From positions 310,001 to 374,000 of the forward strand of contig NZ_ATUV01000002.1 of assembly GCF_000420385.1 (NCBI RefSeq): a DNA stretch of 64,000 nt, read 5' to 3'. The notes under the pieces were generated by a model. The model worked only from the letters and a program-made list of their open reading frames with translations, was not told the DNA's origin and searched no databases. Below are positions 24,707-37,794 of the stretch, piece by piece (the stretch's first letter is position 1; every line of letters starts with the position of its first letter). Made by a program: the position numbers and the translations under genes. This DNA is from Hippea alviniae EP5-r (GTDB taxonomy: Bacteria; Campylobacterota_A; Desulfurellia; Desulfurellales; Hippeaceae).

Positions 24707-25381
24707 ATGAGTGATATAAGAGTAATCAAGAATATAGAGATATTCTCTCATCTCAATAATGAGACTCTAAGAGAAATCGACAGGTATATAAAGATAAAAA
24801 ATTATATAAAAGGAGAGATAATATTTATAGAAAATGATGTTGTAGATAAACTTTTAATACTTAAAGATGGTAGAATTGAAGTTTATAAAAATAATGAAAA
24901 TGGTAAGAAATTCACACTTTGGTATATAAGACCCTTTGAACCGTTTTGTCTTGCTGCTTTTACTCTTGGTAAAGCTATATCTAATGTAAGAGCTGTGGAA
25001 AGAAGTAGTGTCTATTACATTCACAAAAAAGATGTCGAGAGAATATTTAAGAAATATCCGGATGTTTATGCTAAGGTTCTCGATATAATGGCTCATAGAT
25101 TTCTTATAAAGTCAAGAATTCTTGAGAATGTTGCACTGAATGATACAAAAATGAGAATATTCGACATATTGACAGATAACAATTATATGTTTACTGCTGA
25201 AGAGAGATGTGTTATTCCGCTTACTCAAAACGAGATAGCATCCCTAAGTGGTGTGTGCAGAGAGACTGTCTGTAGAATTTTATCGCGCCTAAAAAAAGAA
25301 GGTATATTGGATATAGGTCAAAAACAGATAGTAATAAAGGATTTAAAAAAACTTCAGGATTACTGCTCGAACAGGTCTTAA
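24707..25381 (+). CDS. Crp/Fnr family transcriptional regulator
   Basis: A 224-residue regulator: cyclic-nucleotide-binding-fold N-domain (about 1-115), dimerisation helix (KKYPDVYAKVLDIMAHRFLI) and winged helix. The recognition helix GVCRETVCRILSRLKKEG keeps the R-E-x-x-x-R residues with which E. coli CRP reads TGTGA. The phosphate-binding cassette is not CRP-like (the RS pair is absent), and there is no N-terminal FNR cysteine cluster, so neither cAMP nor an FNR-type iron-sulfur cluster is expected. A matching TGTGA-N6-TCACA site lies just after its stop. It probably controls the sulfur-respiration genes downstream; the signal is unknown. Confidence 0.88.
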   Translation: MSDIRVIKNIEIFSHLNNETLREIDRYIKIKNYIKGEIIFIENDVVDKLLILKDGRIEVYKNNENGKKFTLWYIRPFEPFCLAAFTLGKAISNVRAVERSSVYYIHKKDVERIFKKYPDVYAKVLDIMAHRFLIKSRILENVALNDTKMRIFDILTDNNYMFTAEERCVIPLTQNEIASLSGVCRETVCRILSRLKKEGILDIGQKQIVIKDLKKLQDYCSNRS

Positions 25382-25385
25382 TTCA

Positions 25386-25431
25386 AGATGTGATTTAAAT
25401 CACATCTATTAATTTTCTCTCTCTATATAAT
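25386..25431 (+). promoter_or_regulatory. CRP-type palindrome with class II promoter for the rhodanese/psr genes
   Basis: A perfect 22-base palindrome (25386-25407) contains TGTGA-N6-TCACA, the E. coli CRP consensus. A TATAAT box is at 25426-25431 with no good -35 box. With transcription starting near 25438, the palindrome centre (25396.5) falls at -41.5, the standard class II activator position. The site follows the regulator gene stop by four bases. Leader length to ATG 25470 is about 30 bases. Confidence 0.8.
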
Positions 25432-25469: not shown

Positions 25470-25925
25470 ATGAAGAGATTTTTTGTGTCAATGGTAGCAG
25501 CTTGTATGTTCATCTTTACTGCAAGCTTTGGTGCTCATGCTGGAACGCCTGTCTCAAAAAAGAAGATGGAGATTGCTAAGCAGCACATCCAGCAGGTAAC
25601 ACCGCAGAAGGCAGCAGAGATGAAAGGTGCAATCTTTGTTGATGTAAGAAGCTTGCCAGAGTATAAGGCTGGCCACATTCCTGGTGCAATATGGGCTCCA
25701 AGAGGATTGCTGGACTTTAAAGCTCTTAAATGGTTCAAGGATAAGTCCAAGACTTACATCGTTTACTGCAAAACTGGCGGAAGAGGCTCAATCTCCACAT
25801 ACGATATGGTTCAGCTCGGCTATAAAGCTTACAACTTAAAGGGTGGTTTTCTTGCTTGGAAAAAGGCTGGTTTACCAATCGAGAAAGGTGCTCCTGCTGG
25901 CTTGGGTAAAGGTGTAGAGAAATAA
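25470..25925 (+). CDS. Periplasmic rhodanese-like sulfurtransferase (Sud-like)
   Basis: A 151-residue protein with a signal peptide (about 1-24, cleavage after AHA) and one rhodanese domain. The active-site loop is YCKTGGRGS with C100 as the expected persulfide carrier. In Wolinella the periplasmic rhodanese-type Sud protein binds polysulfide sulfur and passes it to polysulfide reductase; the position here, directly upstream of psr-like genes, supports the same role by inference. ATG 25470 is chosen because AAAGGGAGGTG precedes it and the signal peptide then begins normally. A terminator follows, so this gene can be transcribed alone at high level. Confidence 0.85.
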   Translation: MKRFFVSMVAACMFIFTASFGAHAGTPVSKKKMEIAKQHIQQVTPQKAAEMKGAIFVDVRSLPEYKAGHIPGAIWAPRGLLDFKALKWFKDKSKTYIVYCKTGGRGSISTYDMVQLGYKAYNLKGGFLAWKKAGLPIEKGAPAGLGKGVEK

Positions 25926-25944
25926 GAAAGAAACAGTAAAGACC

Positions 25945-25982
25945 AAGCCCTTCTTCTGTTTAATCAGGAGAAGGGCTTTTTA
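25945..25982 (+). terminator. Rho-independent terminator after the rhodanese gene
   Basis: A 13-base stem (AGCCCTTCTTCTG with CAGGAGAAGGGCT, one T-G wobble) and a six-base loop are followed by a T tract. No promoter is obvious between it and the next gene at 25993, so the psr genes probably depend on read-through. Confidence 0.9.
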
Positions 25983-25992
25983 AAGGCAAAAC

Positions 25993-26532
25993 ATGAGTGA
26001 GCTTTCCGAAGCCTTAGGGATTTGTGCGGATTTGCTTTATTATCCAGAAGAAGAGATAAAACATGAGTTTGCAAGGTTGTTTTCTCTTGTAGGGTCCACA
26101 AATAAGGTGGATGAAATCTTGGAAGGTAAGAGTTTGAGTGACTTGCAAAGTCATTATATTAGCATGTTTGATGTAAAGTTTGGTGGTGTTGAGTGTGTGC
26201 CTTATGAGTCTTGGTGGTCTAAAAAGAGACTTATGGGTAATGAAGCTTTGAATGTTGAAAAATTCTATGAAAGGTGTGGTTTTAGATACAATAGGGATGA
26301 GTTTAAGATGCCGCCAGACCATATCTCTATAGAAATTGGATTTCTTTCGCTTCTTATAGAAGAGAAAAGATTTGAAGAAGCGTGTAAGATGGTTAGAGAA
26401 CATCTCGGATGGGTGAATAAGTTTTATGAGTGCGTAAAGGATAAAAGTAAAATATACGGGGAAATTTTGTCGATACTTGTAAATTTTCTAAACAAGATTA
26501 AGAAGGGGGAAGTATGTCTCAGCGAATCTTAA
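25993..26532 (+). CDS. TorD/DmsD-family chaperone for the molybdoenzyme
   Basis: A 179-residue all-helical cytoplasmic protein of the TorD family, which binds the twin-arginine signal of molybdoenzymes and helps cofactor insertion before export. The signature MPPDHISIEIGFLSLL (near residues 102-117) matches the family's PDH-x-x-x-E-L-x-F pattern. It directly precedes and overlaps the membrane-subunit gene, and the catalytic subunit two genes on has the twin-arginine signal it would bind. Cysteines are not arranged as a cluster. Confidence 0.85.
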   Translation: MSELSEALGICADLLYYPEEEIKHEFARLFSLVGSTNKVDEILEGKSLSDLQSHYISMFDVKFGGVECVPYESWWSKKRLMGNEALNVEKFYERCGFRYNRDEFKMPPDHISIEIGFLSLLIEEKRFEEACKMVREHLGWVNKFYECVKDKSKIYGEILSILVNFLNKIKKGEVCLSES

Positions 26533-27671
26533 AAAAGCAGTTTGCCATTGATGGCTGGGTCGTGTTTTATCTGTTACTTGCTGCTGTCGGTGGCATAGGT
26601 ATGGCTTTGGTATTTTTTAACGGTCAGGAAGCAAGCTATAATGTAACGCGCGAGATTTCTTGGGGTCTTCTCATTATAGGCTATTCGTTTTTTGTCGGAA
26701 TAACAACCGGCCTTTCTTTGCTTGCAGCCTTTGGCCATCTGTTTGGTTTTGAGAATTTTCATGTATTAAGTAGAAAGATTATGTGGATGGCTTTAAGTGC
26801 CTTGATTGCTGGATTTTTTATAATTTTTTGGGATTTGGGTGGACCTTTTAGATTGCAAATATTGAGATTTGTGGTAAATATCGTTCCATTTCACTGGACT
26901 TCTCCTATCTGGTGGATGTCTGTTTTGTATGCTATGGAGTTGCCTATCCTTATAGTTGAAGTTCTCCTACTTCTTGCCAATAAGGAAAAATACACCTTTA
27001 TTGCAAGTATTCTGGGTTTTATTGTTGGAATAAGCGCATATAGCAACATGGGATTTGTTTTTTCTGCAAATGTGGCAAGGCCGTTCTGGCATGGCCCATT
27101 TATTCCGATGTTCTTTATTCTTTCAGCTGTTGGTCTTGGAGCTGCCTTTGCGATTATTGTTCTGTTTATAAGTAGAAAAGAGCTCTCTGATGAAAGATTT
27201 GAAATAACATTAAAGATATTCTCGAAAACTTTATTCTTGGTGCTTCTTACTGTTATATTTGCAAAAATCTGGAGAACGATAGCGCTACTTTATGGAAGAG
27301 AGCCCATGACCTATCAGGCAGTAAAGGAGCTTGTTGCGGGTTCTATGGCATTTAATTTCTGGTTTTTCGAGATATTGGTTGGCATTTTAATTCCTTTCTT
27401 TGTTTTGATTTTTTCAAGGTTTAAGTCTTTGTGGGCGTCGCTTTTTGCTGCTTTCTGTGTGATAGTTGGCGTATTCTTCATGAGATACGATGCCGTTATT
27501 GCAGGCCAGATTATTCCTGAGAACTCTGTATATTTTGACAAAGTTGAAGTTTTACACTATTTTCCGTCGATTGCTGAGATAAGCCTGTTTATCTCAGCTG
27601 CAGGTGTTATGGGTCTGTTGTATGTTTTAGGAAGTCGGATTCTCCGATTAGAGGAGGAAAACCATGGCTAA
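26514..27671 (+). CDS. psrC: NrfD/PsrC-type quinol-oxidising membrane subunit
   Basis: A 385-residue integral membrane protein with eight or nine predicted helices, of the NrfD/PsrC family. It takes electrons from menaquinol and passes them to the PsrB iron-sulfur subunit. Family-like features are the early GGIGMAL helix, the GLSLLAAFGHLFG segment, and the FHWTSPIWWMSVLYAMELP stretch. It has no haem ligands, as expected for PsrC. Gene order C-A-B differs from the common A-B-C. It overlaps both the chaperone gene and the catalytic-subunit gene. Ribosome-binding site AAGGGGGA precedes the ATG. Confidence 0.88.
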   Translation: MSQRILKKQFAIDGWVVFYLLLAAVGGIGMALVFFNGQEASYNVTREISWGLLIIGYSFFVGITTGLSLLAAFGHLFGFENFHVLSRKIMWMALSALIAGFFIIFWDLGGPFRLQILRFVVNIVPFHWTSPIWWMSVLYAMELPILIVEVLLLLANKEKYTFIASILGFIVGISAYSNMGFVFSANVARPFWHGPFIPMFFILSAVGLGAAFAIIVLFISRKELSDERFEITLKIFSKTLFLVLLTVIFAKIWRTIALLYGREPMTYQAVKELVAGSMAFNFWFFEILVGILIPFFVLIFSRFKSLWASLFAAFCVIVGVFFMRYDAVIAGQIIPENSVYFDKVEVLHYFPSIAEISLFISAAGVMGLLYVLGSRILRLEEENHG

Positions 27672-29970
27672 AATAACAAGAAGAGCGTTTATAAAAACTG
27701 CTGCTATAACGACTTCTGCTTTAGCGGCAGGTAGCGTGTTTTCTAAGAGTTCGTCTGCTAAATCTAAAAAAGAGCTGTATGATGAGAAAATGACACATTA
27801 CGACAAAGGAAAAACGAGTTTTACATACTGCGAAATGTGTTTTTGGAATTGCGGCGTTATAGCTCATACAAGAAACGGTGTTGTTCACAAACTTGAAGGT
27901 AATCCTTTTAATCCAAACAACAGAGGACATCTCTGTGCAAAAGGAAACTCTGGAATTATGTCTTTATACGACCCTAACAGGCTCAAATATCCGCTTATAA
28001 GGGTTGGGAAAAGAGGGGAAGGAAAGTTTAAAAAAGCAAGCTGGGATGAAGCGTTTGACTATGTAGCTAATAAGCTTAAAGAGATAACCAGCAAGTATGG
28101 TGCAAAAAGCGTTGCAAGCTTCTTGCACGGAACGGGAGAAGAGCCATTTATTATTCTTTCTCATGCCATAGGAACACCTAATGTTGTTATACCAGCTTAC
28201 TCTCAATGTATGGGTTCAAGAGAAGTAGGTTGGGTTTTAACTTATGGAACTGGTGTTTCAGGGCACTCGACTTTCGATTTTAAAAACTCAAAATATATAA
28301 TCTCTTTCGGAAGAAACCTGCTTGGTGCTTTGCAAGTAAGGGAAGCAGAAGATGTGACGGAAGCTTTAGCAAGAGGGGCGAAATTAGTTTACTGCGACCC
28401 AAGATTTTCTGAAACTGCTGCAAAAGCCTATAGATGGCTTCCTGTAAGACCGGGAACAGACCTTGCTCTTATTTTAGGTATTATACATGTAATGATAAGA
28501 GATGGGCTGGTTAATATGGATTTCGTCAATAAGTATTGCTTTGGTTTTAGTCAGCTTGCAGAACATGTTAAACAATATACGCCAGAGTGGGCAGAGAAAG
28601 AGACTGGTATAGACGCAACAACGATAGAAACAGTTGCTTGGGAATTTGCAAAATACGCTCCTAATGTTGTTGCTGTTCCGCCAAGACGATTCTCAAGGTA
28701 TGGCAACGATACTCAAACATCAAGGGCTATAGCCATACTTAACGCGCTTGCAGGAAATTGGGGTGTTCCAGGCGGTATATGGGTAAGAAGCAAGTATGCC
28801 TATATATTAGCAGAATACAACAGAGGCGAATGTGATGTTAGGGAGATAGAGTTTAGAGAACCAAAAGAAGGGGAGCCGCCAAAGCCAACCGATGAGAGAG
28901 CTGATGGAGCAGGAACATTATTCCCGCTTGCTCCAAAAAGCTTGGGAAGAGAAAATGGAATGATAGAAGCAACAAGGATGCAAAAGCCTTATCCTATCAA
29001 GGCTTGGCTTCTTTATGGGACAAATCCAATAGGCTCTTCTTCCATAGGTAAGAACAAGCTCGTTGAAGAAGTTATACCTAACCTTGACTTTATAGTTGAT
29101 ATAGACATAATACCAAACGACATCAGTATGTATGCAGATGTTATATTGCCTGAATCTGTTTATCTTGAGAGATACGACTTGCCACACATTCAGAAAGATG
29201 CTTATCCGTTTATCGCAATAAGAGAACCTGCTGTAAAACCACTGTTTGATACGAAGGGTGCATGGGATATAGCAAAGGGCATAGCAGAAAGATTGGGTCA
29301 CGGTAAATATTTTGAAAAGAGCGTCGAAGGGAGAATAGAAGAGATATTGAAAGAGTTACCAGAAGAGCAACGAAAAGAGCTTAAAGAAAAAGGTGTTGTG
29401 GTGTTTGAAGGCACGCAACCTTTCCCCCAGGCTGCAGGAGAAGAGCTTAAATTTAAAACGCCTTCTAAAAAGGTTGAGCTTTACTCCACGAAGCTTGCCA
29501 AGTTTTACGAAGAGAAGAAGGATGAGTATTACTATCCATTGCCCAAATATGTTCCACCTGTTCAGCCGAAAGAGAGTGGAGCTTATAGATTGTTATTTGG
29601 AAGGGTACCTATGCATACTCATGCAAGAACCCAAAACAACAAGATGCTTGCAGAAATATATCCAGAGAACGAGTTGTGGATAAACGAAGAAGAAGCCAGA
29701 AAGCTCGGACTCAAAGAACACGATAAGGTTGTTCTTCATAGTCTTGAAACTGGTGTTGATTCTGAACCTATAAAAGTGAAACCTACAGCAAGAATAAGAA
29801 GGGATTGTGTGTTTATTGCTCATGGGTTTGGACATATCTCCAAATTCCTTGAAGTCGCATATAAGAAAGGAGCTTCTGACTCATCTCTGTGTAGTGACGG
29901 CGTTGACAGAATTAGTGGGGCAGCGGCTTTAAACAACGCTTTCGTCAAAATAAAGAAGGTTAGGGGTTAA
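27664..29970 (+). CDS. psrA: Molybdopterin oxidoreductase, polysulfide/thiosulfate/sulfur reductase catalytic subunit
   Basis: A 768-residue Mo/W-bisPGD enzyme. The twin-arginine signal TRRAFIK is at residues 5-11, so the enzyme is exported folded. A [4Fe-4S] site is formed by C56, C59, C63 and C91 (CEMCFWNC, then CAKG). C182 in YSQCMGSREVGW is the likely metal ligand; Cys ligation is typical of the PsrA/PhsA group. The molybdopterin-binding domain with FIAHGFGH ends the protein. Whether it prefers polysulfide, thiosulfate, tetrathionate or S0 cannot be read from the sequence. Chaperone, PsrC and PsrB genes flank it. Confidence 0.9.
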   Translation: MAKITRRAFIKTAAITTSALAAGSVFSKSSSAKSKKELYDEKMTHYDKGKTSFTYCEMCFWNCGVIAHTRNGVVHKLEGNPFNPNNRGHLCAKGNSGIMSLYDPNRLKYPLIRVGKRGEGKFKKASWDEAFDYVANKLKEITSKYGAKSVASFLHGTGEEPFIILSHAIGTPNVVIPAYSQCMGSREVGWVLTYGTGVSGHSTFDFKNSKYIISFGRNLLGALQVREAEDVTEALARGAKLVYCDPRFSETAAKAYRWLPVRPGTDLALILGIIHVMIRDGLVNMDFVNKYCFGFSQLAEHVKQYTPEWAEKETGIDATTIETVAWEFAKYAPNVVAVPPRRFSRYGNDTQTSRAIAILNALAGNWGVPGGIWVRSKYAYILAEYNRGECDVREIEFREPKEGEPPKPTDERADGAGTLFPLAPKSLGRENGMIEATRMQKPYPIKAWLLYGTNPIGSSSIGKNKLVEEVIPNLDFIVDIDIIPNDISMYADVILPESVYLERYDLPHIQKDAYPFIAIREPAVKPLFDTKGAWDIAKGIAERLGHGKYFEKSVEGRIEEILKELPEEQRKELKEKGVVVFEGTQPFPQAAGEELKFKTPSKKVELYSTKLAKFYEEKKDEYYYPLPKYVPPVQPKESGAYRLLFGRVPMHTHARTQNNKMLAEIYPENELWINEEEARKLGLKEHDKVVLHSLETGVDSEPIKVKPTARIRRDCVFIAHGFGHISKFLEVAYKKGASDSSLCSDGVDRISGAAALNNAFVKIKKVRG

Positions 29971-29972
29971 TC

Positions 29973-30554
29973 ATGGATGCAAAGAAGAGAAAACATAGAT
30001 ATACCATGGTTATAGTGCAGGATAGGTGCATAGGATGTATGGCATGTTATAGTGCCTGCAAATTTGAATGGGAAGTGCCGATTAATAAAGAGATGTTTAG
30101 AACGCAGGTTTTAGAGATTGAGAAAAAAGGAGTTGATGGCAATCCCGTTGTAACCTTTCTTCCTATACTGTGCAACCACTGCGATAACGCTCCGTGCGTT
30201 GATGTCTGTCCTACAGGTGCAAGTTATAAAAGGGAAGAAGATGGCATTGTGCTGGTTGAGCCATCTATGTGTATAGGCTGTAAGGCATGTATGGAAGCTT
30301 GTCCTTATAATGCAAGATATTATAATGAAGAATTGACAGCTGTTGATAAGTGCACATTCTGCTTGCCGAGAATAAGCAATGGCCTTGAGCCTGCATGCGT
30401 TGCAACTTGCGTGGGCGAAGCAAGGAATTTTGGTGATTTAAATGACAGAAACAGTAAGGTTTACAAACTGCTAAAAGATGCTAAAAAGGTTTGGAGACTT
30501 CAGGAAGATAAAGGTACATTGCCTAATGTTTATTATGTAAGTATGAATGATTGA
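29973..30554 (+). CDS. psrB: PsrB-type iron-sulfur electron transfer subunit
   Basis: A 193-residue ferredoxin-like protein with four [4Fe-4S] cysteine clusters. They are CIGCMACYSAC, CNHCDNAPCVDVCP, CIGCKACMEACP, and CTFC with a later CVATC. This is the DmsB/PsrB/NrfC pattern; it carries electrons from PsrC to PsrA. It has no signal of its own and would be exported as a complex with PsrA. It starts three bases after psrA and overlaps the next frame by a few bases. Confidence 0.92.
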   Translation: MDAKKRKHRYTMVIVQDRCIGCMACYSACKFEWEVPINKEMFRTQVLEIEKKGVDGNPVVTFLPILCNHCDNAPCVDVCPTGASYKREEDGIVLVEPSMCIGCKACMEACPYNARYYNEELTAVDKCTFCLPRISNGLEPACVATCVGEARNFGDLNDRNSKVYKLLKDAKKVWRLQEDKGTLPNVYYVSMND

Positions 30555-30568
30555 AAGGAGAGAAAGCC

Positions 30569-30931
30569 ATGAAGAGAGTATGGGTTGTTGTAAGTGTGAT
30601 AGCAATATTCTTGTTTGTTGTGGGTGGTTTACAGATAAGGGCAAGTCAGTCTGACTATTACAGAATGGATAAGGCTCTATGCGAGAAATATGTGGAGATG
30701 TCCCAGAAAGCTTTGCAGGATAACGATTTATACTCGGCTAAGCTGTATGCACAGAAAGCTGTTCAGGCTAATCCTTGGAGTAAAAAAGCATGGAATAATT
30801 ACAATATGATTATCGTAAGAATTACTGGCGGTAATCCAGATATTACTCTTGAGCCAAAGAAAGAAAAGGCTGAATTGCCACAAGAAGCACCTTCTGCTGA
30901 AGGTGAAGGAGAAGAGATAGAAGGCTGCTAA
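30569..30931 (+). CDS. Small membrane-anchored or secreted protein with TPR-like helices
   Basis: A 120-residue protein of no recognised family. Residues 4-24 are one hydrophobic segment (signal anchor or uncleaved signal). Residues about 38-72 (ALCEKYVEMSQKALQDNDLYSAKLYAQKAVQANPWSKKAW is this region's pattern of paired helices) look like a single TPR-type unit. The tail is acidic and ends in Cys. ATG 30569 has AAAGGAGAG upstream, so an in-frame TTG 18 bases earlier is rejected. Its place between psrB and the Rieske gene suggests a role in assembling or docking the complex; not proven. Confidence 0.7.
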   Translation: MKRVWVVVSVIAIFLFVVGGLQIRASQSDYYRMDKALCEKYVEMSQKALQDNDLYSAKLYAQKAVQANPWSKKAWNNYNMIIVRITGGNPDITLEPKKEKAELPQEAPSAEGEGEEIEGC

Positions 30932-30937
30932 ACAGAT

Positions 30938-31327
30938 TTGAATAGAAGAGACTTTTTAGGGAAGGCTTTAGTTTATATGCCTGCTTTAGGCGTTTTGGCT
31001 TTAGCCTTCCCTTTTTATTATTTTATAAATTCCTTATACAGCAAAAGAAGAGTCGAGATCCCGATAAACAAAATAAACAAAAGAGTTGTGTTTTTTAAAG
31101 ATTACGATATTTTTATTGTAAAGGTGGAAAGCGGATTTAAAGTTTTTGACGCTCACTGCACTCACATGGGATGTATATTGAATTACAACAACAAAGATAA
31201 GCTGTTTGAATGTCCTTGTCATGGAAGCGTATTTGATTTAAGCGGAAAAAGACTTAAAGGACCTGCCAGAAAGCCGCTTAACAGATTGACTTTTAAAATT
31301 GTTAATAATAGTTTAATCATAGGATGA
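30938..31327 (+). CDS. Rieske [2Fe-2S] protein
   Basis: A 129-residue Rieske protein. Ligands are C74 and H76 (CTHMGC) and C92 and H95 (CPCHGS); C79 and C94 would form the usual disulfide. The N-terminus has a twin-arginine-type motif (NRRDFLGK) and one hydrophobic anchor (about 10-33). It starts with TTG. Short Rieske proteins of this kind partner cytochrome b subunits; the cyt b gene follows with a 4-base overlap. Its place after a psr operon rather than in a bc1 operon is unusual. Confidence 0.92.
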   Translation: MNRRDFLGKALVYMPALGVLALAFPFYYFINSLYSKRRVEIPINKINKRVVFFKDYDIFIVKVESGFKVFDAHCTHMGCILNYNNKDKLFECPCHGSVFDLSGKRLKGPARKPLNRLTFKIVNNSLIIG

Positions 31328-32136
31328 AGATAGATTATGTAATATCATGGATATGCCAAGCTCTGTTTATTGTTGCTTTGTTGAGTGGCATACCACTTGT
31401 CTTTGCCTATTATCCACAACACGCTTTTGAAAGTGTTCAGAAAATAACATATTTAACACCGTTTGGCTTATTTTTTAGAAAACTTCACTATTTCTCTTCA
31501 GAGCTTCTTTTGTTTTTCATCGTTTTTCATGTGATTATAGAACTTTTTTTGTCTTATAAGAGCAAAAGAAAAACAGAGTCTGACTATCTATTTGGCAGTT
31601 TAGCTTTTATTGCCGTGATTCTTTTAATGTTTAGCGGATATGTTTTAAAAGCCGACCAGAATGGTCAATCTGCGGCTTTGGTTGCTCAAAATATAATGAA
31701 GGATAGTGTAATTTTGAAGTATTTTAGTTCGTTTTTGAGTGATTCTTCTGTCTTTTATTGGAAGTTTTTTTTGTGGCATGTGATATTTTTGCCCTTCTTC
31801 TTTTTTTTGTTTGTTTTTTATCACGCAAAAAGAGTTTTACCAAGGATTGAGTTTGTATCTATAGCTTTATCGCTGAGTGTTATTTTTATGCTGTTTTTTA
31901 AAATGCCAAAGGACATTCCGTTTAATTTGACTTCAAAGCATTTGACAGGTCCTTGGTTTTTTGAAGGTGTTGAAAATATGTTAAAGATGAATGTAAATGT
32001 TGATATTGCCGTTTTTCTTGGTTTTTTTCCGTCTATTGCCCTTATGTTTTATAAAAATGAGTCAAAGTTCAAAACAGTTATAAACATACTGCTTATTCTT
32101 TGGGTTATATTTTATGTTGCGATTAGCTTGGTTTAG
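31324..32136 (+). CDS. Cytochrome b6-like dihaem membrane subunit
   Basis: A 270-residue protein with about six membrane helices. Two haem-ligand pairs are visible: H55/H69 (spacing 14) and H152/H167 (spacing 15, the b6-type spacing rather than 14 as in mitochondrial cyt b). After the four-helix core, the segment LTGPWFFEGVENMLKM stands where the quinol-site PEWY motif occurs; the glutamate is replaced. It would oxidise or reduce quinone with the Rieske protein just upstream. It overlaps the 12-haem cytochrome gene by 23 bases. Confidence 0.85.
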   Translation: MKIDYVISWICQALFIVALLSGIPLVFAYYPQHAFESVQKITYLTPFGLFFRKLHYFSSELLLFFIVFHVIIELFLSYKSKRKTESDYLFGSLAFIAVILLMFSGYVLKADQNGQSAALVAQNIMKDSVILKYFSSFLSDSSVFYWKFFLWHVIFLPFFFFLFVFYHAKRVLPRIEFVSIALSLSVIFMLFFKMPKDIPFNLTSKHLTGPWFFEGVENMLKMNVNVDIAVFLGFFPSIALMFYKNESKFKTVINILLILWVIFYVAISLV

Positions 32137-33877
32137 GTGGATTGCCGTTATATCCGCTCTGTTTGTTGTAGTTGTTGTTCTGTTTGAGTTTGGTTTTGAG
32201 AAAAAGAGAAAGGCTCCAAGAACTGTTGATTCTTGCGTTGCATGCCACAACGATATAAAAACCGTTGGAAAATCTCATCCAATCTCTGTTTTTGGTTGCG
32301 CAACCTGTCATGGCGGAAACAGATATGCAACAGATAAGGATGTGGCTCATAAGGGAATGGTGAAAAATCCTGCCAGACTTGAATATGCATCTAAGTATTG
32401 TGCTAAGTGTCATTCTGATGTTATTGATAGAGTAAAAAAATCTATAATGGCAACCAATAAGGGTATTATTGGCGTTTTAAATAGGAAGTATTTGGGTATT
32501 GATAGCTATCCTTCTATTGAAGAGATTAAAAGTATAAAAACGGATAATCTTACGGTTAGCTATTTTAGAAAGATGTGTGCAGCATGCCACATAAATCAGC
32601 TTCAATCTATTTTCCCGAAGCAAAGAGTCAGGGGTGGTGGCTGTATCGACTGTCATGGCGTAAAGGAAAAAAATAATCCACATACAATTTTAACTACACG
32701 CATACCATCTTCAAACTGCCTAAAGTGTCATAATCGTTCCAACAGGATAGGGCTTGCATACTTTGGTCAGTTTCAATCGGCAGGATATGGAACACCCTAT
32801 AAACATGGTGAGTTTTCGCATGTAATTAAGGGTGGTGGTAGATATTATTTGAAACTACATGCTGACATTCATTGGCAGAAGGCTCAACTTGAGTGTATAG
32901 ATTGCCATACAGAACACGGCATAATGGGTGATGGTTATGAACATAAGAGATTTGAAGAGCAAGTTGTAATACAGTGTGAAGATTGTCATAGTCCGCAGTT
33001 TGGCAAACCCAACGAATTGGCTAAGTTGCTTGCACAGACAAATGCAAAGATACCGTTGAAGGATGATATAGAAGTAGCTTATACGCACAAGGATTTTAGA
33101 CCTATCTATAACCTTCAAAAAGACAGAAGTGGTAGAATACTTTTTTATAGAAAGCTTGATGGAAAGCCTATAGAGATGAAACTAATGTCAAATAAACCCT
33201 ATCATACACTCGACATACACAAAAAACTCTCCTGTCAGGCTTGTCATTCTGAATGGATGCCTTCCTGTTATGGCTGTCATGTTGCAAACTTTGAAGACAA
33301 AAAGCAATTTGATTGGCTCTTACACAAACCAACAAAGGGCGCATTTAGAGAGTTTAGCTCGTTTAATAGGTTTTCTCATCCAACACTTGGAATTAGTTGG
33401 AAGGGTAAAATTATGCCGTTTGCACCGGGTTGTCAGTCGTTTGTTACGGTCTATTCTGGCAAAATAAAACCCAAAAATCAATTTCATAGGCTCTTTTTTG
33501 CATCGTGGGACCCACACACAACACAACTAAGATCAAGAAGCTGCACAGATTGCCACTTCAATCCTGCAACAATCGGCTTAGGCAGAGGCTCACTTCACAT
33601 AAAAAACGGAAAAATAGTCTTTAATCCTGTTTATAATTCTAAACTCTCGGGTTTGCCAATAGATTTCCCGCTTGATGCGTTTGTGAATATTGAAGGAAAA
33701 CAGCTTCAGGGTGTATCCATAAAGAGCGAAATGGCTTTTAATAAAAAAGAGATAAAAACGATTATTTCTGCATATAGCTGCATTTTGTGTCATGGCAGTT
33801 ATTCTGATAAGATTTATCAGGATTTTGAAAGTTCGAAAAAGCTATTTTTGGAAGGTAAAACGCCATGCTCAAGGTGA
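32114..33877 (+). CDS. Membrane-anchored dodecahaem c-type cytochrome
   Basis: A 587-residue protein with an N-terminal membrane helix (about 9-28) and twelve CxxCH haem-binding sites: CVACH, CATCH, CAKCH, CAACH, CIDCH, CLKCH, CIDCH, CEDCH, CQACH, CYGCH, CTDCH and CILCH. No closely related named family is recognised. The single helix suggests a periplasmic protein attached to the inner membrane, replacing cytochrome c1 in the Rieske/b complex. It overlaps the preceding cyt b gene and the next multihaem gene, so all are likely one complex. Haem lyase CcsBA is encoded next door. Confidence 0.88.
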   Translation: MLRLAWFRWIAVISALFVVVVVLFEFGFEKKRKAPRTVDSCVACHNDIKTVGKSHPISVFGCATCHGGNRYATDKDVAHKGMVKNPARLEYASKYCAKCHSDVIDRVKKSIMATNKGIIGVLNRKYLGIDSYPSIEEIKSIKTDNLTVSYFRKMCAACHINQLQSIFPKQRVRGGGCIDCHGVKEKNNPHTILTTRIPSSNCLKCHNRSNRIGLAYFGQFQSAGYGTPYKHGEFSHVIKGGGRYYLKLHADIHWQKAQLECIDCHTEHGIMGDGYEHKRFEEQVVIQCEDCHSPQFGKPNELAKLLAQTNAKIPLKDDIEVAYTHKDFRPIYNLQKDRSGRILFYRKLDGKPIEMKLMSNKPYHTLDIHKKLSCQACHSEWMPSCYGCHVANFEDKKQFDWLLHKPTKGAFREFSSFNRFSHPTLGISWKGKIMPFAPGCQSFVTVYSGKIKPKNQFHRLFFASWDPHTTQLRSRSCTDCHFNPATIGLGRGSLHIKNGKIVFNPVYNSKLSGLPIDFPLDAFVNIEGKQLQGVSIKSEMAFNKKEIKTIISAYSCILCHGSYSDKIYQDFESSKKLFLEGKTPCSR

Positions 33878-35505
33878 TTGTTATTCTTGTTGCTTTGACT
33901 ATATCTTCTTATGCAGAAGGCATAAGGGATTGCACAAGTTGTCATAAGATAGAAAAGATTGACAATGTTCACAATTTGAGTTGTGTAGAGTGTCATGTTT
34001 TGAAAGAGAATCGTGATAATATTTATTCGCACAAGGTTGTTATAAAAAATCCGTCATCCTTTGAGTATGTTGATAAACAATGCGCAAAGTGCCATAAAGC
34101 AGATATAGAAAGAGTAAAAAACTCGCTTCATGGAACGCTCTCTTCAGCTATAAACATAACCAGATTTGTATGGCATGCGCAAGGCAGTTATAAACCGATT
34201 TATGGTATCTTTAAAGCAAAATACTTAAAAGCCATACCAGAGCCAAAGGAGAAAATAGAAAAGCCGGCCGATTTGGTTGACGATTTGTTAAGGAGAAAGT
34301 GTCTAAGATGTCATATTCAAAACAACTCTTTTGGAACTGTTGGAACATACAGGGCAAAAGGATGTGCAGCCTGCCACATGGAGTATTCAAAATTTGGCAG
34401 ATACGAAGGTATGGATGCTACAATTTACGGCAAGAAGGGTTTTTCAAAAACACATAGATTCTTTAAACATCCGAAGATGTCGAGTTGTCTTGCGTGTCAT
34501 AACAACGAATTTGTGGGAAGCGATTATGTTGGGCTGTTTCCACAGGATTATGATAAATCATTCCGTTCTCCTATAGAAAAAAGTGGCTATTTCAAGATGA
34601 GACTATACGGCATAGGTCAGCATCATCTAAGCAGCGATATTCATTTTAAGAAGGGTTTGACATGTGTCGATTGTCATAAAAAGTCCGATGTTATGGGTAA
34701 TTATAAGCTTTACGAAAGAGAGCTTGATGCAGTAAAGATAAGGTGTGCTAATTGTCATGGTGGATACAAAAAAAAGCCTAACAGCCGTTTTGTTAAAAGG
34801 GTTGGTAAAGGATATATTTTTAGGTCTGTTAGCGGTAAAAATTTTTATGTAAAGCAGTTTGATAAAACATTAGATGCACATAAGTATCACAAAAATGTCT
34901 CGTGTAGCGCTTGTCATTCTCTTTGGCAGTCAAACCACTTTCAGCTAAATCTCTATCTTGATAAAACCAAAAATTATGCAATGTGGAAAAATTTGATTTA
35001 TCAGGAAGATCCATATCTTGAGCGGTTTTTGAAAAAGGCTTTAAAAGACCCAAGCTTAAAACCTATAATGCCAGATTATATAGACAACAAACTTAAGAGT
35101 GGTATCTGGTATTCTGGCTGGCTTGCAAGGCGATGGATGCCTTTTGTTTTGGTTAAAGATAGGGATGGTATCTATAGGATAGGAAGGCCGCTTTTCCAAT
35201 ATAGACTCACCTATAAAGATAGAAATGGCAAAATTGTATTTGATGATATTGATAATATGTCTGTTATAATGCCATATTCGCCACATACGATATCACTTTA
35301 CGGCAAAAGCTGTGAGCAGTGTCATAACAATAGATTTATGTTTGATGAGAATGCCTTAAAAGGTTCTGCAGAAGAACTATTTTTTCAAGGTAAGGTTCTG
35401 TTTGGAAGAAAGGTTGATAATAAAAGCCTTATAAATACCGAAAAATACAAAAAGGTCAGATTCGAAGAGCTAAGAAGATTTTTTATTGATGCCAACAGTA
35501 AATAG
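33865..35505 (+). CDS. Periplasmic decahaem c-type cytochrome
   Basis: A 546-residue secreted protein (signal peptide about 1-17, cleavage after SYA) with ten CxxCH sites: CTSCH, CVECH, CAKCH, CLRCH, CAACH, CLACH, CVDCH, CANCH, CSACH and CEQCH. Its layout and several segments (KNPSSFEYVDKQCAKCH here, KNPARLEYASKYCAKCH in the neighbour) are similar to the upstream 12-haem protein, suggesting an old duplication. It is likely the soluble or loosely bound electron acceptor of the complex. Its 3' end overlaps the convergent ccsBA gene by 36 bases. Confidence 0.88.
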   Translation: MLKVIVILVALTISSYAEGIRDCTSCHKIEKIDNVHNLSCVECHVLKENRDNIYSHKVVIKNPSSFEYVDKQCAKCHKADIERVKNSLHGTLSSAINITRFVWHAQGSYKPIYGIFKAKYLKAIPEPKEKIEKPADLVDDLLRRKCLRCHIQNNSFGTVGTYRAKGCAACHMEYSKFGRYEGMDATIYGKKGFSKTHRFFKHPKMSSCLACHNNEFVGSDYVGLFPQDYDKSFRSPIEKSGYFKMRLYGIGQHHLSSDIHFKKGLTCVDCHKKSDVMGNYKLYERELDAVKIRCANCHGGYKKKPNSRFVKRVGKGYIFRSVSGKNFYVKQFDKTLDAHKYHKNVSCSACHSLWQSNHFQLNLYLDKTKNYAMWKNLIYQEDPYLERFLKKALKDPSLKPIMPDYIDNKLKSGIWYSGWLARRWMPFVLVKDRDGIYRIGRPLFQYRLTYKDRNGKIVFDDIDNMSVIMPYSPHTISLYGKSCEQCHNNRFMFDENALKGSAEELFFQGKVLFGRKVDNKSLINTEKYKKVRFEELRRFFIDANSK

Positions 35506-37794
35506 TGTGTACAAAACAAGAACGAACCATATAGCTATACCGGCTTTTATTGCATAAAACCAAACTGGAGATGCTTCTCCTTTTCCATAACTGTGAAGGC
35601 CTAAGGCTAAATAAAAGTTTACGCCAAAATATGTCATAAGGATAAAGAAAAAGCTAAATATGTAAAGAAAAGCCATAAATGTGCCGCTAACTCTTTTTGT
35701 TGCTTTTAGGTGGAGTATAGTTGAGTATGCAAGAATAGATATTAAACTCCAAGTCTCTTTCGGATCCCAAGACCAGTATCTTCCCCAGCTTTCATTTGCC
35801 CAGATGGCTCCCAAAATGGTTCCAATCGATAAAAGAAGAAGGCCTATGTAAGCCGAAAGGGATGATATACTCTCCGTTTGTTCTCTGTTTTTTGTCTCTA
35901 TGATATATATAATGGCTGATACCGAAGAGATAGCCAAGAATCCATACCCAACAGTTATGACTGCAACATGAAATAGAAGCCAATATGATTTTAAAACGGG
36001 TATTATGTTTATTATCTGTGGGTCTATGTCGCTTAGGCGGGCTGTGAGCATAAACATGCCAGAAACAAAAAAGCCAGCTCCTAAAATTGAGATGTTTCTT
36101 TTGAATACAACAAGGGATACCAAAGCTATGCTCCATGCTATAAACACAATGGATTCGTAGGCATCAGACCAGGGCATGTGTCCTGATATATACCATCTTA
36201 AAATTAGATTTGCAGAATGAAGTAAGACAAGAGAAATTCCAGTAAAAATACATGGTTTGTATAATTTTGAGATGATTCTTTTGCTTGAAAATCCGATTAT
36301 TATTAAAACCAAGCCAAAAATTGGATAGAGTATCGCAAGCTTTGAAAAAATTGATAGGCGATTATATATAATCTCTGCTTCTATTTTTATTTTTGATGGT
36401 ATTAGTTTTGGTGAGTATATCTTTTGGATTGTGTATATTATTTTTATCAACTCTTTTTCTTTTTTAGTGTCGTAATTCGATATAGATTTAATCAGAAGTT
36501 TAAAGATGTTTAAGTAGTATGCATTTTGCAAGTCTTGGACAGAGAGCCAATCTGAGTTATTGAATTCAGAAGGAAACATTTTAAAGATAGAAGCATTATA
36601 CACTTCGTTTGCTATAAATACTCTCTCTGCTATTTTTAGCCATTCTTTATCTTCTCTGCTTCTTTGGTTGGGTGGCTTTCTTAAGGCTCTGTTTATTTCA
36701 TCAGAATAAGCAAAGAATCCTGTTAAACTAAAAAAGTCGTTGAATGATGCATACCTTCCTTTTATCTTGAGTTTTTCTCTTATCTGTTTGTTGCCAATAT
36801 AAATCATTTTGATGTTCTGAAACAGGTTTGGATGTGTTAACATTCCTGTTATTATCTGGTTATAATTCATTCCGTATAAGCTGCTTTTCTTTGTCAGTTT
36901 ATATACGATGTTTTTGTCAAGCGTGTCCATTGACTCTATTCTTCCGTTGTTTTGAACGAGTATTCTGCTCCATAGCTCGCTGACTTTTTTTGATTTTTTA
37001 GCCCACTCTTTTATGGTTGCGGAGTTGGATATGTTTTGGGTTGAGTGTATTATTAAAAAAAGCATAAGGGTTATTTTTGAAAGTTTTTTCAAGGTCTCTT
37101 TTAGTTGGGCAGGTGGAAATAGTATAAGCAGAAAAGAACCTATCGAGAATAGCAGGTATCCGAAGTATGTTATGTAAATTCCTGGGTCGTATCGGATAAA
37201 CAGAACAGAGCCTTTTTCATCCGGGTCATAACTCATCTGATATATTCTGAGCCCTTTAAATTTTATCGGATGGTTCATGTAGATGTGATAATAAAAAGAC
37301 TTGTTTCTGTCCGTTATTACTATATAGCTATCATAGCTTTTTGGTTGATTGCTTCCTAAGTATTTCTCTATGACAAAATTTGTTAAAGTTATCTCAAAAC
37401 CGAGCGGCTTTGTCTCTTCTTTAGAAGGATTTGACCTGAAAGTTTCTAAAAAATTTGATGATGTTTGGCCAATTCTTAAATGAAGTATGCCTTCGAATGC
37501 CTTGTGTCTTGTTATCCCTGCTCCTATAAGCATTACGAGTATGGAAAGATGAATTAGAATTAAGGGTGGCTTTTTGTATAGCTTGTATCTTAGGATGGTT
37601 AGCGTTAGATTTATTCCTAAAATCCAAAATATGAACTCAAACCAATCTGTTCCATAAACATTAACCCATGCTTGTTTGTCTGAAGAAAAATATAGTGTTG
37701 CACTCATAAAGTATATCATTAATGCGATAAAAATTACAATAGTTAGTTTAAGGGAAGAGAGCATGTTGTAAAATTTTTTCATTACTGAAACCAT
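35470..37794 (-). CDS. ccsBA: System II cytochrome c biogenesis protein, fused ResB-CcsA
   Basis: A 774-residue fused haem transporter and cytochrome c synthetase. The N-terminal ResB part has four hydrophobic segments around a large periplasmic loop. The C-terminal CcsA part holds the tryptophan-rich haem-handling motif WGRYWSWDPKETWSL, flanked by conserved membrane histidines. Fused CcsBA is typical of Campylobacterota and relatives. A start at an internal ATG 12 bases later (MKKFYNML) is equally possible; neither has a good ribosome-binding site. It would attach haem to the 22 CxxCH sites of the convergent cytochrome genes. Confidence 0.92.
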   Translation of the reverse strand: MVSVMKKFYNMLSSLKLTIVIFIALMIYFMSATLYFSSDKQAWVNVYGTDWFEFIFWILGINLTLTILRYKLYKKPPLILIHLSILVMLIGAGITRHKAFEGILHLRIGQTSSNFLETFRSNPSKEETKPLGFEITLTNFVIEKYLGSNQPKSYDSYIVITDRNKSFYYHIYMNHPIKFKGLRIYQMSYDPDEKGSVLFIRYDPGIYITYFGYLLFSIGSFLLILFPPAQLKETLKKLSKITLMLFLIIHSTQNISNSATIKEWAKKSKKVSELWSRILVQNNGRIESMDTLDKNIVYKLTKKSSLYGMNYNQIITGMLTHPNLFQNIKMIYIGNKQIREKLKIKGRYASFNDFFSLTGFFAYSDEINRALRKPPNQRSREDKEWLKIAERVFIANEVYNASIFKMFPSEFNNSDWLSVQDLQNAYYLNIFKLLIKSISNYDTKKEKELIKIIYTIQKIYSPKLIPSKIKIEAEIIYNRLSIFSKLAILYPIFGLVLIIIGFSSKRIISKLYKPCIFTGISLVLLHSANLILRWYISGHMPWSDAYESIVFIAWSIALVSLVVFKRNISILGAGFFVSGMFMLTARLSDIDPQIINIIPVLKSYWLLFHVAVITVGYGFLAISSVSAIIYIIETKNREQTESISSLSAYIGLLLLSIGTILGAIWANESWGRYWSWDPKETWSLISILAYSTILHLKATKRVSGTFMAFLYIFSFFFILMTYFGVNFYLALGLHSYGKGEASPVWFYAIKAGIAIWFVLVLYTLFTVGINKKSS

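Follow-up and report, generated by a model that had tools for sequence, protein, structure and literature searches.

In Geobacter, the ext gene cluster encodes a 12-haem cytochrome (ExtM), a 10-haem cytochrome (ExtN), a Rieske protein (ExtO) and a cytochrome b (ExtP), with the rhodanese ExtH encoded nearby (PMC5877670). The ext cytochromes are highly conserved, and most discussion of them treats them as conduits for electrons. A second described system is the PsrABC/PhsABC type of molybdoenzyme, represented by Thermus PsrABC (2vpw) and Salmonella PhsABC. Here we describe a locus of the sulfur-respiring vent bacterium Hippea alviniae EP5-r (positions 25470-35505, plus strand, of the 64,000-nucleotide window, that is, the whole stretch of DNA analysed) in which relatives of both systems adjoin, and in which the 12-haem cytochrome carries a cysteine that, judged from aligned codons, corresponds to a selenocysteine of its relatives. 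We tentatively propose, with somewhat less than even confidence, that a two-enzyme periplasmic sulfur-respiration system is encoded by this one operon. No published description of a coupling between Psr and Rieske/multihaem genes was found, most subscription papers lying outside the search. The Hippea genome (G000; 1.75 Mb, four contigs) holds the window in contig C2; the other G and L numbers denote compared genomes and loci.

Ten genes are recognised in the locus from the open reading frame (ORF) list and from Pfam and NCBIfam scans, in the order rhodanese, TorD, PsrC, PsrA, PsrB, TPR-like protein, Rieske protein, cytochrome b, 12-haem cytochrome and 10-haem cytochrome. From the TorD gene to the 10-haem gene, all junctions overlap or are separated by at most 6 bp, while the rhodanese and TorD genes are 67 bp apart; the ten genes likely form one operon. 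All genes named in the first-pass annotation are present, and their order, their near-overlap and the counts of 12 and 10 CxxCH sites in the two cytochromes were borne out. That annotation left the rhodanese at 25470 unnamed, its description of the genes as fused does not hold because they are separate overlapping ORFs, and its label for the TPR-like protein was given by inspection only, the protein matching no Pfam or NCBIfam family.

The distal half of the locus is, by homology, a relative of the known, little-understood extMNOP module. In particular, the 12-haem cytochrome (32114..33877, plus strand), which has an N-terminal membrane anchor, matches the ExtM model NF040943 with 305 bits (cut-off 800), while the 10-haem cytochrome (33865..35505, plus strand) stands in the place of ExtN and is a paralogue of the 12-haem protein, its residues 4-318 matching the ExtM model with 173 bits. 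The cytochrome b (31324..32136, plus strand; Pfam Cytochrome_B 1e-10) is b6-like, with profile matches to cytochrome b6 structures at 5e-24, and scores 77.6 bits against ExtP (cut-off 290). All Ext matches are thus below their cut-offs, and because the equivalog threshold is missed, the 12-haem protein is classed as a relative of ExtM and not as ExtM itself; true ExtM is found in G314, G177 and G249. Like Geobacter extHIJKLMNOPQS, the locus keeps a 12-haem cytochrome, a 10-haem cytochrome, a Rieske protein, a cytochrome b and a rhodanese in one cluster. It differs in running Rieske-cytochrome b-12-haem-10-haem, where Geobacter has 12-haem-10-haem-Rieske-cytochrome b, in being joined to PsrABC, in the length of its cytochrome b (270 aa versus 204 aa in L229, of the Geobacter type), and in having in the cluster no ExtKL selenocysteine pentahaem protein, no ExtS and no ExtI porin, the last of which is present in L227 and L229. 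All 12 CxxCH motifs of the 12-haem protein are invariant among 8 aligned sequences, as are the 10 of the 10-haem protein among 7, and the latter protein has no non-haem cysteine. As a separate observation, the NCBIfam model NF040968, named FeS_ExtO (416 positions), fits the multihaem cytochrome at 32114-33877 instead of the Rieske protein, so that its name and model seem mismatched.

The Rieske protein (30938..31327, plus strand; Pfam Rieske 4.8e-12), the single one in the genome, has an N-terminal anchor with an RR motif and carries CTHMGC at residue 74 and CPCHGS at residue 92, with ligands invariant in the alignment. Cytochrome b has two invariant histidine pairs, H55/H69 and H152/H167, spaced by 14 and 15 residues, and GPWFF, invariant in 12 sequences, in place of PEWY. 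The pair therefore resembles cytochrome bc/b6f complexes in its Rieske ligands and in its four haem-ligating histidines with b6-like spacing, but it lacks, besides PEWY, a conserved haem-ci cysteine and a monohaem c1/f, its acceptor being the 12-/10-haem pair. Rieske/cytochrome b units in nap and nos clusters (Caldithrix nap, PMC5317091; clade II nos) likewise are quinol-cytochrome c modules dedicated to one reductase operon, although they serve another reductase and have no ExtM/N pair. A nos-like maturation cluster with NosD (L234:3000-13000, in G001, and L235) holds another, different pair of a Rieske protein and a cytochrome b, of 207 and 407 aa; in G001 a TorA-type reductase (978 bits) comes next.

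The 12-haem protein also contains a non-haem cysteine, Cys440 (codon TGT, 33431..33433, plus strand), in the sequence PGCQ. This cysteine is kept in 84% of a 61-sequence alignment of the family, the shortfall arising mostly because sequences end early, many of them split exactly at this position; true ExtM proteins also carry PGCQ. In 26 of 80 loci the codon is TGA (PG[TGA]QD), and the reading frame past it is conserved and holds the last two haem sites, giving 11 haem sites per read-through product. The TGA loci form one clade (support 97) within a cysteine background. A SECIS-like stem 3' of the TGA (columns 17-22/28-33) has 86.5% of its cells paired and 13 two-sided changes (0 of 500 shuffles), with a shifted hairpin in three loci; RNAalifold found no consensus structure in the TGA set, and single-sequence fold z-scores for it are weak. 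A SelB score over the cut-off was obtained for each of the 22 TGA-bearing genomes examined and for none of G000, G001, G004, G016 and G020; tRNA-Sec reaches full score in 16 of the 22, hits being counted only at 72 bits or more since the search responds weakly to other tRNAs. The recurrence of the same codon in 26 genomes, the single clade and the conserved flanks rule out chance or a frameshift as the source of the TGA. On this codon evidence, Cys440 is the counterpart of the selenocysteine of relatives.

Selenocysteine is found in oxidoreductase active sites (PMC1794560), and Cys440 therefore probably marks a catalytic site or is a reactive haem ligand, which suggests that the 12-haem protein does chemistry and is more than a wire. 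A 2026 review of selenoproteomes gives ExtKL and an octahaem protein as the selenocysteine cytochromes, with ExtM absent (PMC13188914). ExtKL, from the same gene neighbourhood in Geobacter, resembles the candidate described here as a c-type selenoprotein with multiple haems, but it is another protein. If the assignment is true, the selenocysteine form of the 12-haem family would constitute an undescribed selenoprotein family. The 12-haem profile matched no PDB sequence. An AlphaFold model of the protein (pLDDT 79.6, pTM 0.76) gave no PDB match at E<=0.001, and neither did the beta-rich domain of the predicted fold (about residues 382-464) that holds Cys440.

The proximal half of the locus places the A, B and C (NrfD) subunits of a molybdoenzyme together in one operon. 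Specifically, a TorD-like molybdoenzyme chaperone (25993..26532, plus strand; Pfam Nitrate_red_del 1.5e-21, NCBIfam TorD below cut-off) is followed on the same strand by the NrfD-family membrane quinone subunit PsrC (26514..27671; Pfam NrfD 2.5e-25), the Mo-bisMGD catalytic subunit PsrA/PhsA with its twin-arginine signal (27664..29970), the 4Fe-4S ferredoxin-type subunit PsrB (29973..30554; Pfam Fer4_11 3e-33) and the TPR-like protein (30551..30931), a small protein of 126 aa anchored by one N-terminal hydrophobic segment. The closest solved structure to PsrA is 2vpw (571 bits), and pairwise alignment to Thermus PsrABC matches residues C173, H145 and R332 of 2vpw, which are the Mo-ligand cysteine and the active-site histidine and arginine of Thermus PsrA. 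Because its NCBIfam PhsA score of 513 bits misses the curated threshold of 694, the protein is filed as PsrA/PhsA-like and not as PhsA. The subunit set, the twin-arginine signal on A, the Mo-ligand cysteine, the H145/R332 equivalents and the NrfD anchor are those of PsrABC/PhsABC; the order C-A-B, the coupling to a Rieske/multihaem module and the substrate, here a prediction, set the locus apart.

Florentino et al. 2017 list a Hippea gene as PhsA (PMC5317093), and its gene number fits the position of PsrA in G004 (220 kb, gene 0227). On this inferred mapping by position and gene number, the locus seems already to be on record as a thiosulfate reductase, its Rieske half not being part of the entry. 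The 'PsrA' of the same paper fits an enzyme of 933-938 aa common to G000, G001, G004 and G008. In our genome this other NrfD-linked molybdoenzyme (L206:3204-7512, contig C1 at about 810 kb) has 933 aa and is about 32% identical to the present one over 305 aa; it is probably what the literature calls PsrA.

The complete order, from the Crp-type regulator through rhodanese, TorD, PsrC, PsrA, PsrB, TPR-like protein, Rieske protein and cytochrome b to the 12- and 10-haem cytochromes, recurs in G009, G004 and G001, in contig-cut versions in G003, G013 and G020, and in L045, a metagenome-assembled genome labelled Campylobacterales, with protein identities of 34-92% across genomes. The order is thus kept across the family, the Desulfurellales and further lineages of the class, which disposes of the possibility that it is unique to this strain, and by comparison of the genes its recurrence is far beyond chance. 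Elsewhere in the class the parts are reshuffled. The two halves are divergent neighbours in L046; psrA-psrB-TPR-rhodanese faces cytochrome b and the 12-haem gene in G019; two loci, TorD-Rieske and psrA-psrB-TPR-rhodanese, are present in G021; and three loci, TorD-Rieske, psrAB and cytochrome b-12-haem, are present in Desulfurella (G016), the exception to the otherwise general placement of the TPR-like gene 3' of PsrB in psrAB loci of the class. The module is wholly absent from G008 and G010. Because the reshuffled genes still pair (TorD with Rieske; PsrAB facing cytochrome b-12-haem), the coupling of the halves is taken as real, and the same partners in varied pairings argue better for a shared function than a frozen order would. 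At the level of sequence, then, it is established both that the parts are associated and that the residue has a Cys/Sec identity.

Outside the class, ExtI-ExtM-ExtN is followed by PsrA, PsrB and NrfD in L227 (G314), and a Rieske-cytochrome b-12-haem-10-haem set stands beside rhodanese, transporter, NrfD and PsrA genes in L232; by gene content, these are independent linkages to Psr in two lineages. The four-gene set also occurs without Psr, in L040/L059, L049 and L052. It could be argued that the distal half is a metalloid (selenite/tellurite) reduction module, as in the Geobacter ext annotation, placed beside Psr by chance or shared regulation. NCBIfam does name ExtM, ExtN, ExtO and ExtP, and work on Geobacter implicates the porin ExtI in the reduction of selenite and tellurite (PMC5877670), but ExtI is absent from this cluster, no Ext cut-off is reached, and rearranged loci show the link to Psr, rhodanese and TorD again; we consider this explanation very unlikely.

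Regulatory features are compatible with transcription as a single unit. A gene for a Crp/Fnr-family regulator (24707..25381, plus strand; Pfam HTH_Crp_2 3e-16, cNMP_binding 2e-14) lies directly 5' of the locus, as it does in G009, G004 and G001. Between it and the rhodanese gene lies a Crp-type palindrome, TGTGATTTAAATCACA (25389..25404), an exact TGTGA-N6-TCACA that is likely the activator site of the operon, with its centre about 32 bp 5' of a candidate -10 box, TATAAT (25426..25431, plus strand); this spacing would place the centre at about -41.5 relative to the predicted start. TGTGA-N6-TCACA is present in the regulator-rhodanese gap of four of four genomes inspected, and only 3 exact copies occur in 917,599 bases of the Hippea genome. 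A single operon promoter is supported by this conserved and, in the genome, rare Crp-like site; promoter and terminator scans across the operon body are near background, and internal promoters may exist as well. The secreted rhodanese (25470..25925, plus strand; Pfam Rhodanese 3e-19) is kept as first gene in relatives, and its start is better placed at ATG 25470, preceded by the Shine-Dalgarno-like AGGGAGGTG, than at TTG 25431. Another exact Crp-type palindrome was seen at L197:12961 (G000:C1, about 1,189,961), within an ORF that by eye resembles the hydrogenase maturation protein HypD.

In the proposed two-enzyme system, menaquinol would be oxidised at cytochrome b, and electrons would pass via the Rieske protein to the 22 haems of the 12-/10-haem pair in the periplasm. 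There the 12-haem protein, with Cys440 beside a haem, would reduce a compound with an S-S bond or another chalcogen substrate whose potential is fairly positive, our best guess being a polythionate such as tetrathionate, and PsrABC would then use electrons from PsrC to reduce what is formed (thiosulfate or polysulfide). Electrons from cytochrome b/Rieske would be too positive for polysulfide or thiosulfate and adequate for polythionates, selenite and tellurite, and a thiol or selenol beside a haem suits S-S cleavage, as in TsdA. The scheme has two steps like the Salmonella Ttr-then-Phs relay, but with a multihaem enzyme proposed in place of Ttr. Such a system would give Hippea a quinol-cytochrome c step able to conserve energy in sulfur respiration. 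More broadly, and still short of even confidence, the ExtM/12-haem family may be a new catalytic multihaem class with Cys or Sec by a haem and a dedicated Rieske/cytochrome b, which together with PsrABC would carry out a two-step sulfur respiration. The change from Cys to Sec and the repeated Psr/Phs linkage make it a testable claim that ext cytochromes are sulfur or chalcogen enzymes.

Several observations weigh against this proposal. The substrate, as well as the direction and the electron path, is assigned by inference. In the Rieske protein S97 is present and the usual tyrosine is replaced by Phe99, and because a Rieske protein carrying that phenylalanine was measured at +335 mV (PMC12954380), the potential is not readable from sequence. 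Furthermore, G021 has PsrAB and TorD-Rieske with neither cytochrome b nor the 12-haem gene found, the three pieces in Desulfurella lie apart, compatible with loose coupling, relatives of the 12-haem gene in Desulfobulbaceae mostly stand alone, and L060 and L233 seem to lack the cysteine.

Desulfurella, G021 and G023 also have psrAB without a directly adjoining psrC, so that another membrane partner is needed there, and in G019 psrAB faces cytochrome b-12-haem. These arrangements would suit a purely conductive multihaem pair, in which cytochrome b/Rieske and the 22 haems link the menaquinone pool to PsrAB as a second route beside PsrC and Cys440 has a structural role or simply ligates a haem. 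Such a route would carry electrons uphill to PsrA, since polysulfide and thiosulfate (about -0.26 and -0.4 V, respectively) normally lie far below a Rieske protein in potential, and a cysteine turning into selenocysteine indicates reactivity, not structure. We therefore regard a wire-only role as rather unlikely.

In another alternative, PsrABC would run in reverse, oxidising sulfide or polysulfide to supply menaquinol, and the Rieske/cytochrome b/multihaem branch would hand those electrons to a more positive acceptor (a metalloid, polythionate or nitrogen compound). This path is thermodynamically downhill, and the other NrfD-linked PsrA-like enzyme of G000, G001, G004 and G008 could do the reduction. 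Known Hippea and Desulfurella, however, live by sulfur reduction (PMC5317093), and a search restricted to Mo-enzymes, Rieske proteins, cytochrome bd and CxxCH proteins revealed no suitable acceptor enzyme besides cytochrome bd; reversal thus appears quite unlikely. The cytochrome bd oxidase gene lies at G000:C2:74962-76248, in a presumed anaerobe, and is also found in the other Hippea-type genomes searched.

The first-pass annotation had suggested that the locus may be a joined, two-branch machine with one branch leading perhaps to or from the cell surface. The joining of the halves into one unit stands, given the conserved order, the single Crp-like site and the repeated pairings in relatives, but the surface branch does not. 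Although the pair offers 22 haems and the Geobacter type (L229) has a porin of the outer membrane next to ExtMN, the cluster has no ExtI-type porin, the two haem proteins begin with plain anchors or signals, and in about 99% of the genome the only other protein with at least two CxxCH motifs is valyl-tRNA synthetase, leaving no outer-membrane multihaem partner. This search took in all but about 8 kb of C3 and a few hundred bases at other places; on C2, and on C1 from 817 kb onwards, it went through the ORFs, and on the remainder of C1 mainly through a CxxCH list. Extracellular electron transfer is accordingly extremely improbable.

At its 3' end the operon is overlapped by 36 bp by a convergent gene (35470..37794, minus strand) for a CcsBA-type cytochrome c assembly protein, which scores above the TIGR03144 cut-off in G000 (187.9 versus 187.6 bits).

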